In this document: positions 22,367-25,660 of the stretch, piece by piece
Layout of the letters: every line of letters starts with the position of its first letter
How positions within the stretch are numbered: position 1 is the stretch's first letter
DNA from: Chitinophaga sp. 180180018-3
Lineage (GTDB): Bacteria > Bacteroidota > Bacteroidia > Chitinophagales > Chitinophagaceae
Assembly: GCF_037893185.1 (NCBI RefSeq)
Contig: NZ_CP140772.1
Coordinates: forward strand, 6,634,001-6,698,000
DNA: 64,000 nucleotides
Direction of reading: 5' to 3'
Translations under genes and position numbers: made by a program
Notes under the pieces: generated by a model
The model's input: the letters and a program-made list of their open reading frames with translations, nothing else
Told to the model about the DNA's origin: nothing
Databases searched by the model: none

Positions 22367-23266
22367 TTACACCCGATGCTGTTCGTAATGATGCGGCGGC
22401 GCAGCAGCCTGCAGCTGTTGTATTTCTGCAGTTGTTAGTACCGGTGCTGTTACCGCTTTCAATGCCTCCGCCAGTTGCGCTGGCGTACGTATGCCTACGA
22501 TAGCGCTGCTGACAGCAGGTTGTTGTAAAACAAAGCGCAGAGCGGAACCGGAGGCATCCCTGGCAGCAGTGCTGACTGATTGCACCGCTGCAGCTGCGGC
22601 TGCCACCTGTTTTTCCGAATGATCCAGGTAAGGCGCCGCGGGTTTGCTGATCAGCAATCCTTTTGCTACGCTTCCTCTTGCCAGCACGCCGATATTATTC
22701 TCCTGAAGTAAGGGGAAACAATATTCCTCGGGGCGGCGGTCGAGCAGGCTGTATTGCATCATTACGCTGACGATATGCGAGCGTTGCACATATTCCCGGA
22801 TTACATTAGGCCGGATAGAAGATATACCATAGTAGCGGATCTTCCCTTGTTGTTTCAATAATTCAAAAGCAGCGATGGTATCATCGATCGGATCTTCGAG
22901 GGTACCACCATGCAACTGATACAGATCGATATAATCCGTTTTCAGTCGTTTCAGGCTTGCCTCTACCGCCGACAGGATGTATTCCTTCCGTGGGTTCCAA
23001 TCCCAGCCACTGCCATCTTCTCTCCATTGGTTACCGGCTTTGGTGGCAATGATCACCCCGGTTCTTCTTTGCTGCAGGGCTTTCCCCACCAATATTTCAT
23101 TCTGGCCATGATCGTACAGGTCGGCAGTATCGAAGAAGTTAATACCCTGATCGGCCGCCTGCTGAAGCAGGTGGATATTCGTTGTTTCGCTGCCGCTGAG
23201 CGACATACAGCCGAAGCCAATTTCGCTGACAGAGAGGGAGGATCTTCCGAGAAGGCGGTATTGCAT
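22367..23266 (-). CDS. Aldo/keto reductase
   Basis: This 299-residue NADPH-dependent oxidoreductase has the (beta/alpha)8 fold. The N-terminus MQYRLLGRSSLSVSEIGFGCMSL is typical. The catalytic tetrad is visible: Asp47 (FFDTADLY), Tyr51, Lys76 (IATKAG) and His119 (LYQLHGG). The coenzyme segment SSAIVGIRTPAQLAEAL is in place near the C-terminus. The physiological substrate cannot be inferred. A strong -7 promoter match lies 24 bp before the start. The gene borders the 1.5-kb region with the hairpin array, which lies on its 5' side. Confidence 0.93.
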   Translation of the reverse strand: MQYRLLGRSSLSVSEIGFGCMSLSGSETTNIHLLQQAADQGINFFDTADLYDHGQNEILVGKALQQRRTGVIIATKAGNQWREDGSGWDWNPRKEYILSAVEASLKRLKTDYIDLYQLHGGTLEDPIDDTIAAFELLKQQGKIRYYGISSIRPNVIREYVQRSHIVSVMMQYSLLDRRPEEYCFPLLQENNIGVLARGSVAKGLLISKPAAPYLDHSEKQVAAAAAAVQSVSTAARDASGSALRFVLQQPAVSSAIVGIRTPAQLAEALKAVTAPVLTTAEIQQLQAAAPPHHYEQHRV

Positions 23267-23363: not shown

Positions 23364-24016
23364 GGGCCGCCTGGATAAACAGCCCTTTTCATCAATTTAC
23401 GTCCACCCTAAAAGTATTTTAGCTTTTTGATCGCGATTGAGACTGTGGGTATTTTTGTCAATAATTGGGGCCGTCTGGATAAACAGCCCCCTTTTTTAGT
23501 ATGTCCGATCCATCGTGAAATTTCATTTGCACAGCTGAGCGGGAGCGGATGAAAATCAGGACCATCTGGAAAGATGGTCCCTTCCTTTCCCAAAATCAAA
23601 TTGTACCTATGAAAAACTATCATATAGAGAAGACTGTAGTTAGCAGTCTGAATTTTCTGTTATGGACTGTTTAAAAAAACAGCCCCTTGTTTCCGAATCA
23701 ATCGCAGCATAAATCAGTTTGTACTTATTTACACTACAGGTTCAACATATGGCGTTTCAACATTTATCTGGACAATATACCTTTCCGGGGTATATTGGAA
23801 TTTTCTGTATAAGGACCGTCTGGAAAGACAGTCCGGGGAGTTAAAGCTTCCATTGTGTATGTTACATTCCAATAATTCTTTCATAAAAAAGTTTTGATGG
23901 ATTAAAAGGGGGGACTACCAGGAAAAGCGGTCCCGTTTTGCTAAGCGTTGCAAAGACTTCAACTAATTATTCCTCTCAATTTCCAGGAAAAACCGGACCG
24001 CCTGAACAGACAGTCC
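23364..24016. repeat. Tandem family of seven related short hairpins, about 100 bases apart
   Basis: Seven segments of 22-25 bases share a pattern: 23364-23385, 23467-23491, 23559-23581, 23664-23686, 23813-23834, 23911-23934 and 23995-24016. The typical unit is GGA-CCGT-CTG, a six-base A-rich loop (GAAAGA or GATAAA), then CAG-TCC. The outer GGA/TCC or GGG/CCC and inner CTG/CAG arms pair, leaving a 4-base bulge. In the third unit the whole stem pairs perfectly around GGAA. Unit-to-unit spacing is 84-149 bases, mostly 92-105. Five of the seven (units 1-3, 6 and 7) are followed within a few bases by a pyrimidine- or T-rich stretch on the plus strand. No protein family is recognisable in between. 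I infer a tandem array of small RNA genes or very short peptide genes; the class is not known to me. Confidence 0.75.
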
Positions 24017-24312
24017 TTTCTTGTATGTACTATCACCCCATTTGTGAATAGCATTTTGTATTGGGCAATTTTTTCGGGAACAAACAACGGCATGTGATTA
24101 TATTCCTGCGTGCAGCAGCAAGCACCTTTCCTGCTTCCGACGAATACCTGGCCAGCTGATCACTCAAACGGCTACACGTAATTACTATCTGCCGAAAATT
24201 GACTGTTAGTTCAGTGTAAATAAGAAAAGATTGTGATGGTAATGCCCCAGATAGGTGCATGTCTGAAAATGTCGGTTAAACAAAAAAGATTGCATACGGT
24301 TACTTTTTCAAA

Positions 24313-24365
24313 ATAAAACATTGGGTTTACGGATATCTCTATAAAACATTGGATTTACGGATATC
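24313..24365. repeat. 25-base direct repeat, two copies
   Basis: ATAAAACATTGG(G/A)TTTACG followed by GATATC occurs at 24313-24337 and again at 24341-24365, with one difference and a 28-base period. It lies 420 bp upstream of the DUF6515 gene, beyond the hairpin array. It could be a regulator-binding pair or a simple tandem duplication. Confidence 0.85.
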
Positions 24366-24787
24366 CCGCTGTATAAATTGGTTGGCTAACCTTACCAGGT
24401 ATAAATCGACGGTTAATAAAAAAATAGGCTACTATAATGCTCAGACAGACTAAAAAAGATTTTGGTAGTATTGTCTAACGATTAATGATCGTTATAATGC
24501 AAAGGTAATACGCAGGATATCAAAAAAACACGGGATTTCCGGCAATTGTATCAATGAACAGGGATGAACAATCCAAATTTTCATGAATGAAGTAAACCGG
24601 AGTATTAGTCACCGGGTAACCTGCCGGCAGATTTGCGGCTGTCATCCACACTGCCAGCTCACCCGATACAGCGACTGAAACCGGCTGCATTTTTGCGTAT
24701 AATCTGTTTTCAGTTAAACTCCGCTCTTCATTTACTGTCTAATAATTGACTGAAAAATAGCGGTATTGAAGAGAAGATTACCACTTA

Positions 24788-25660
24788 ATGTTAAGAAAAA
24801 TGAAAAACAGATTTTATATACTGTTTGTGCTGATAGGCCTCCTGGGCACAGTTACAGTTGACAGTGCATACGCTCAGCGGGTGCACGCCGGAGGTGGAGG
24901 AGGCCATTACAGTGGTGGTGGTGGCGGCCGCGTCAGCAGTGGTAGTTCTCACTTTGGAGGCAGTGGCCGCGTATATGCAGCCCCCCGCATGTCTTCTCCC
25001 AGAGTAGTGGCCCCGGTAAACAGAGGTTATTACTATCATGGTTACCCTAGCGGACGCGTTTACTACGGACGTCCCTGGTACAGATACAGACATTACTACC
25101 ACCCATACTACTACCCTCCACTGGGATTTTATGTTTCTACCCTTCCTTTCGGTTATTTCTCATTGGGTGCAGCCTTTGGTCCAATGTACTATTATGGCGG
25201 TACCTACTATGAATCTACCGGCGACGACAGGGGTTACAAAGTAGTAGAAGCACCCATTGGAGCTGCCATACCGGATCTGCCGGAGGGAGCACAGGAAGTA
25301 CAGGTGAACGGTAATACTTATTACGAGCTCAATGGTACTTATTACCAGGAAAGCATGACCGATAACGGCAGACGTTATGTTGTGGTTGGGAAAAATGGCA
25401 AAATAGGTGACCAAACCGTGACAATTCCGGATAATCAGGGAAATCCTTCCAATAATCCCAACGCTGGTAATAATCCTGGAACAAATGTTCCGGAATCTGA
25501 CAACCTCCTTTCCAAACTGCCGGATAATTGCCGCACCGTGAACATCAACGGACAGCAATATTACTTATCTCCGGATGGAATGTATTATCAGTCTGTGCTG
25601 AACAGCGATAATACGGTTGCCGGGTACAAGGTAGTTGGTAAAATGAACGCTGATAATTAA
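24788..25660 (+). CDS. Secreted Gly/Tyr-rich protein of the DUF6515 type
   Basis: This 290-residue exported protein has a signal peptide ending near DSAYAQ (about residue 29). A glycine/serine-rich region follows (about 33-60), then a tyrosine- and arginine-rich stretch (YYYHGYPSGRVYYGRPWYRYRHYYHPYYYPP, about 80-113) and two similar domains. Each domain starts with LP and contains VQVNGNTYYELNGTYYQ (about 167-200) or VNINGQQYYLSPDGMYYQ (about 243-270). This organisation matches DUF6515 proteins of Bacteroidota, whose function is unknown; a cell-surface or biofilm role is conceivable. The start could also be the ATG at 24800. It ends before a bidirectional terminator. Confidence 0.8.
   Translation: MLRKMKNRFYILFVLIGLLGTVTVDSAYAQRVHAGGGGGHYSGGGGGRVSSGSSHFGGSGRVYAAPRMSSPRVVAPVNRGYYYHGYPSGRVYYGRPWYRYRHYYHPYYYPPLGFYVSTLPFGYFSLGAAFGPMYYYGGTYYESTGDDRGYKVVEAPIGAAIPDLPEGAQEVQVNGNTYYELNGTYYQESMTDNGRRYVVVGKNGKIGDQTVTIPDNQGNPSNNPNAGNNPGTNVPESDNLLSKLPDNCRTVNINGQQYYLSPDGMYYQSVLNSDNTVAGYKVVGKMNADN

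Follow-up and report, generated by a model that had tools for sequence, protein, structure and literature searches.

Covarying hairpins in a tandem array point to a 1.1-kb structured RNA on the minus strand in one clade of Chitinophaga

An array of seven hairpins found in Chitinophaga sp. 180180018-3 very probably marks a gene for a structured RNA on the minus strand. In the window, i.e. the whole 64-kb stretch of DNA analysed, the array lies in a spacer flanked by two genes assigned by Pfam, one for an aldo/keto reductase (22367-23266, minus) and one with DUF6515 (24788-25660, plus). An array between these two genes was found in 29 of 79 Chitinophaga genomes, with synteny kept in all 29 loci. 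Minus appears to be the functional strand, and the array to form part of a single RNA of about 1.1 kb, extending from about 24495 to 23350. The asymmetry between G·U and A·C cells in the stems, an upstream promoter element on the minus strand and a long-range helix are the evidence that points to a single minus-strand RNA with the hairpins as its domains.

All seven hairpins are 22 nt long and lie within 23364-24016, with successive starts 104, 91, 105, 149, 99 and 83 nt apart. Numbered along the minus strand, they are hairpin 1 (23995..24016), hairpin 2 (23912..23933), hairpin 3 (23813..23834), hairpin 4 (23664..23685), hairpin 5 (23559..23580), hairpin 6 (23468..23489) and hairpin 7 (23364..23385). 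The array described in the sequence-only reading was thus real and its coordinates were confirmed. A degenerate consensus allowing up to 3 mismatches recovered five of the seven hairpins and nothing else in the window (shuffled sequences: mean 0.02, largest 1), and in the 8.13-Mb genome all five matches were located inside the array, with 1 match for the reversed-pattern control. A dispersed repeat was rejected, as no copies of the pattern were found elsewhere in the own genome. A covariance model gave one further match there, of 23.7 bits at C1:921073, in a stretch without a hairpin match.

Selection on RNA structure, which had been preferred over random terminators from the window alone, was borne out by covariation exceeding that of shuffled sequences. 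For 97 distinct hairpins, 96.3% of cells were paired versus 88.9% after shuffling, and double changes were observed in 103 cells versus 23. Compensatory changes were looked for and found: 8 of the 9 pairs had changed on both sides versus 3.2 in shuffled sequences, and none of 500 shuffles reached as high. We are aware that this shuffle test is inflated by the relatedness of the sequences; nevertheless, the two-sided changes and the slid controls agree with it, pairing falling to 48-53% after sliding by one column. Pair 5-18 was unpaired in 19 of the 97 hairpins. As judged from these comparisons, the hairpins are under selection at the RNA level. At the tip of the 9-bp stem the loop and its closing U and A follow the pattern U-NUYN-A. 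The best conserved single position is U11, the second loop base (160 of 161 hairpins), followed by the closing U9 and by G19 (159 each), the closing A14 (158) and G1 (157); conservation of the outer stem bases is about equal to that of the loop. The four-base loop was NUYN in 160/161 and NUYC in 114/161 hairpins; among 18 different loops UUCC was the commonest (81/161). The window's seven loops are GUUC, UUCC, UUCC, UUUU, UUCC, AUCC and AUCC. The proposal that the loop is conserved as well as the stem therefore holds for parts of the loop, foremost the U, while the "A-rich loop" that had been described is the complement of a pyrimidine-rich one.

The strand was assigned from the mismatches tolerated in the stems. 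Read on the minus strand, the 161 hairpins of 23 loci gave 1204 Watson-Crick, 190 G·U, 25 A·C and 30 other cells; the plus reading would turn the 190 G·U cells into A·C mismatches, and the minus strand is favoured for this reason. Six further loci, which lack the small open reading frame (sORF) described below, gave 200 Watson-Crick, 47 G·U, 3 A·C and 11 other cells on the minus strand. The RNAalifold consensus fold, computed for 9 of the 18 loci then in hand, reached -128.6 kcal/mol on minus versus -84.1 kcal/mol on plus. Its covariation term alone was unfavourable on minus (+5.3) versus -1.0 on plus, so the fold was used for strand and architecture and not as a test of covariation. Together with the minus-strand promoter element and the long-range helix, the asymmetry does not support the cluster of tandem plus-strand small RNAs first suggested and points to one RNA of about 1.1 kb. 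The "T-rich tails" noticed on the plus strand then correspond to A-rich stretches that precede the hairpins on the minus strand.

Upstream of the array a -7 promoter element, TAnnTTTG, was found in 29/29 loci (TACCTTTG in the window, 24500..24507, minus). It agrees with the consensus TAHHTTTG given for Bacteroidota in PMC6847099. Over the 29 RNA regions (41,365 bases per strand) TAnnTTTG occurred 33 times on the RNA strand versus 10 times on the other, and transcription would be expected to start at about 24495. A 5'-terminal hairpin, UAACGAU-cauua-AUCGUUA (24476..24494, minus), was predicted from the consensus fold of 8 of the 23 sORF-carrying loci; 3 of its 7 pairs showed more than one pair type, and 7 of 56 cells were unpaired. 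In the presumed leader, between the 5' strand of the long-range helix and the sORF, a 25-nt segment, ATAAAACATTGGRTTTACGGATATC, occurs twice, 28 nt apart (24313-24365).

The long-range helix, LR1, pairs the leader with the block preceding hairpin 6, about 930 nt away. Its 5' strand is CUUUUUUAGUCUGUCUGA (24441..24458, minus; inverted repeat I2) and its 3' strand UCGGACAUACUAAAAAAG (23491..23508, minus), with the motif GGACATA present in 16/29 loci. LR1 was examined in the 23 sORF-carrying loci and was recovered in 12, the window included; it was not recovered in L049-L054 and L089-L093. Alignment A3 was left out, as the two LR1 strands were misaligned in it. Among the compared sequences compensation is clear in three loci: in L045 both sides have diverged from those of the other loci yet can still form 14 + 8 bp, and in L047 and L048 both sides have changed as well. 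For the 12 loci the mean pairing energy was -24.5 kcal/mol with the own partner versus -19.7 kcal/mol with swapped partners, and for L045 -30.9 kcal/mol versus -17.1 kcal/mol with the best foreign block. The own partner was the best one for L039, L042, L045, L047 and L048; for the other 7 of 12 at least one foreign block paired better (9 of 11 in L044). Compared with the other hairpin-flanking blocks, the block before hairpin 6 was the best partner in 9/12 loci, with another block better in L038, L044 and L048. Over the whole own RNA no other stretch paired as well in 8/12 loci, and 1-4 stretches did so in L038, L041, L044 and L048. Other predicted long-range helices comprised 4-8 bp in the 8-locus fold. 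A second long-range pairing, 13 bp long in L037, would join the end of the ORF to the hairpin 4 block; it competes with a local hairpin and is not claimed.

Each array hairpin is preceded by a conserved block with a sequence of its own, as seen in the alignment of 9 loci. On the minus strand these are GGGGUGAUAGUACAUACA before hairpin 1 (24017..24045), AGUCUUUGCAACGC before hairpin 2 (23934..23965), AUUGGAAUGUAACAUACACAAUGGAAGCUUU before hairpin 3 (23835..23880) and GGGUGGACGUAAAU before hairpin 7 (23386..23415); UUUUCAUAGGUACAAUUUGAUUUUGGGAAAGGAAG before hairpin 5 (23581..23625) was conserved in this alignment and in alignment A4. The block before hairpin 4 (23686..23720), with the motif CGAUUGAUUC, was conserved in A4, which comprises 15 of 23 extracted units; six of the 29 loci gave none, five of them without a recognisable hairpin-4 block and one with too long a spacing. 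Three motifs were each found in 23/29 loci: CGATTGATTC from the hairpin 4 block as an exact match, TCATARG, and TTGGARTGC from the hairpin 3 block, the window's copy not being among the latter. Between hairpins 4 and 5 there is a further, smaller hairpin with covariation. The candidate terminator is hairpin 7. Within the 14 bases after the last hairpin 24/29 loci had a T-rich stretch, defined as five or more T in any 10 consecutive bases; the window's copy has no T-tract there. In a terminator scan 1 of the 7 units was terminator-like on plus and 2 on minus.

The region had been taken as gene-free, which does not hold: just upstream of the array, in the sense of the RNA, lies a conserved sORF of 29 codons (MQSFLFNRHFQTCTYLGHYHHNLFLFTLN, 24206..24295, minus). 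A profile of the peptide matched 24/79 genus genomes at E <= 0.02, of which 23 matched at 3.6e-10 or better and one, G057, weakly (E 0.0197). Homologous peptides are 29-30 aa long. Counted by codon position, differences were 368/251/923 within a set of 13 sequences and 216/189/413 within a set of 9, and this third-position bias in the compared sequences argues for a coding ORF, which would be translated. No Pfam match was obtained for the two homologues tested. In 294 genomes of the family 138 matched at a loose E <= 1, but G000 and G048, which belong to the genus, were alone in falling below 1e-3; peptide patterns run over an 84,980-species collection gave 15 loci, all Chitinophaga, C. ginsengisegetis DSM 18108 and C. 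arvensicola DSM 3695 among them, and none were found in viral contigs. A 75-aa ORF on the same strand (24033-24260), which overlaps the sORF in a different frame, was discarded in favour of the conserved 29-aa ORF, its counterpart in L038 having 38 codons. When sought in the 29 array loci, the sORF was absent in 6, which keep array and promoter; the peptide is thus not what maintains the RNA.

With the spacer as query, BLASTN matched 18/79 genus genomes, all 18 with the order reductase, spacer, DUF6515. The peptide profile added five loci with the same neighbours. DUF6515 was present in 56/79 genomes, 33 of them without the peptide; 20 of these were examined, and 6 had 3-6 hairpin matches between reductase and DUF6515 and 14 none. 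The other 13 and the 23 genomes without DUF6515 were covered by covariance model R1 alone, the filters of which lose weak matches. Built from sequences of 15 of the 29 array loci, the other 14 not being used, R1 matched 38/79 genus genomes: 29 at the locus and 9 with weak single matches elsewhere. In the four of these nine in which an array was sought, one isolated hairpin each and no array was found. In 396 genomes of the order R1 matched 25, comprising 4 genus genomes at the locus and 21 others at no more than 30 bits; the 7 of the 21 inspected had at most one hairpin each and no array. Arrays in relatives, which had been looked for, are therefore present but confined, as far as the genomes were searched, to one clade of the genus. 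Isolated single unit-like hairpins were noted at G210:C13:50418, G024:C5:161249, G009:C1:1307271 and G027:C2:332701; they are perhaps ordinary terminators. In a quick tree of 40 reductase sequences (29 array carriers and 11 non-carriers as outgroup) the carriers formed one side of a branch (SH-aLRT 97), consistent with one change of the array and two of the sORF, e.g. one gain and one loss in G078; long branches, including L110 (G078) and L111, are of unsure placement in it. In relatives such as L038 an ADP-ribosylglycohydrolase gene (PF03747, tested for the L038 copy; L038:6472-7425) stands between the RNA promoter and DUF6515; in the window 24508-24788 contains no such gene and no remnant of it by tblastn.

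That no named family was recognised in the hairpins agrees with Rfam 15 (4227 families), which gave 0 matches in the window at the gathering threshold. Below threshold, 6 matches were obtained in the region at E 0.68-2.5, RNAIII not among them, and 1 in four relatives at E 0.99. No such Chitinophaga RNA was found in titles or abstract starts among the matches listed from the licence-limited literature. OLE, GOLLD and ROOL are large bacterial RNAs that are long, conserved and structured. The Chitinophaga RNA resembles them in these respects but is dominated by repeats of one hairpin and lacks an Rfam match. It differs from type III toxin-antitoxin systems (ToxIN) in having no adjoining toxin endoRNase gene, its neighbours being the aldo/keto reductase and DUF6515 genes; RF02519, considered in this comparison, scored 20.7 bits versus a required 50, at a place beyond the array and on the opposite strand.

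As for its function, we tentatively favour a multivalent sponge or platform RNA that would titrate one RNA-binding partner. Transcription would proceed from the TAnnTTTG promoter (~24495) through the 5' hairpin, the 29-codon ORF and the seven 9-bp hairpins and would end close to hairpin 7, short of the aldo/keto reductase gene. In the window's clade the leader would fold back on the block before hairpin 6 and close most of the RNA. The repeated hairpin would be the working part, presenting one recognition site many times: as compensated changes accumulate in the stem while U is retained as second base of the pyrimidine-rich loop, the many hairpins are most likely one site shown repeatedly. Through its presumably translated peptide the RNA would be dual-function in most carriers. 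RRM proteins prefer pyrimidine-rich RNA, and with one RRM_1 match in the own genome, at G000:C1:999246-999455, this single protein is our guess for the partner, based on its presence and on that preference. Our confidence in a sponge or platform, already below an even chance, was lowered a little because the loops are similar, not identical, and LR1 was recovered in 12/23 loci. Counting against a plain sponge, unpaired block-specific motifs are conserved too, and a plain sponge needs none.

In principle such an RNA would act like CsrB, with another protein as partner. RsmZ is described as having four stem-loops with GGA loops (PMC4005645). CsrB/RsmZ and the Chitinophaga RNA share several hairpins with a common loop motif in one RNA, here 3-11 with NUYN in 160/161. 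However, the loops are GGA there versus NUYN, commonest UUCC, here; the Chitinophaga RNA is about 1.1 kb long and contains a long-range helix as well as, in most carriers, an ORF; and the partner CsrA (PF02599) was not found in the own Chitinophaga genome by a search that was positive in 3 of 14 control genomes. Hfq was not found in the own genome either. FopS and GibS of Bacteroides are reported to work with the RRM protein RbpB, FopS being separate sRNAs of about 65-70 nt (PMC11697453). Common to these and the present case are the phylum Bacteroidota, paralogous RNA units and an available RRM_1 protein; unlike the scattered FopS genes, the Chitinophaga units lie inside one RNA, at one locus and behind one upstream promoter element, all five pattern matches in the own genome falling within the array. 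A bolder version, which we regard as rather unlikely, is that with neither Hfq nor CsrA found a 1.1-kb RNA with up to 11 hairpins sponges an RRM-type protein as a CsrB-like system of Bacteroidota, its peptide gene having been gained and once lost. If true, the emergence of a dual-function RNA could be traced within one genus, and a small protein gene would be seen arising inside, or being lost from, a structured RNA. To our knowledge, little is known on post-transcriptional regulation in Bacteroidota outside Bacteroides.

S. aureus RNAIII encodes a small peptide and forms long-range pairings. It also has many hairpins and acts by loop pairing (PMC2837412). A trans-acting antisense regulator of this kind, with exposed loops and unit-specific single-stranded blocks pairing with target mRNAs, is an unlikely but serious alternative to the sponge. 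The blocks, unpaired in predicted local folds, are conserved in primary sequence, the loops are pyrimidine-rich in both RNAs, and the combination of peptide, multi-hairpin RNA and long-range pairing resembles RNAIII (in part PMC2837412): a small ORF lies inside a many-hairpin RNA, presumably transcribed, in 23/29 array loci, and pairing of the 5' region with the 3' part was recovered in 12/23, most clearly in L045, L047 and L048. On the other hand, the Chitinophaga hairpins are copies of one unit, the ORF is absent in 6/29 loci, Rfam gave no match, and internal pairing accounts for at least one block, the one preceding hairpin 6. Furthermore, mRNAs of Bacteroidota are described in PMC6847099 as lacking Shine-Dalgarno sequences, so that in these hosts, different from that of RNAIII, a UUCC loop would be without a common target at ribosome sites.

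We consider it improbable that the RNA essentially serves as mRNA for the 29-30-aa peptide and that its 3' region, structured and unusually long, controls stability or translation. The coding bias, the ORF in 23/29 array loci and the parts of it predicted to pair downstream in the 8-locus fold would fit, but array and promoter are kept without the ORF in six genomes, and in the reductase tree ORF-less G078 falls within the ORF carriers, albeit with a long branch. Still less probable is a cis-acting leader, an attenuator or sensor, of the aldo/keto reductase gene: the RNA lies directly upstream of this gene and points towards it in 29/29 loci, but in the window a separate TATCTTTG begins 31 nt ahead of the start of the reductase gene, T-rich sequence follows the last hairpin in 24/29 loci, and an RNA of about 1.1 kb carrying as many as 11 similar hairpins hardly resembles a usual leader. 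Tandem plus-strand small RNAs or terminators, suggested by T-rich bases after some units and by the one unit terminator-like on plus, were rejected as highly improbable, since on that strand the stems would have to tolerate 190 A·C cells against 25 G·U and the consensus fold is weaker.

Partner and function should be directly searchable, as the RNA family offers strong covariation, a fixed genomic place, a variable hairpin number and, within one genus, a natural comparison with and without the peptide. The hairpin number per locus ranged from 3 to 11 (29 loci). In L046 (G003), with eleven hairpins, the hairpin-4 unit and a small satellite hairpin have apparently been duplicated several times.
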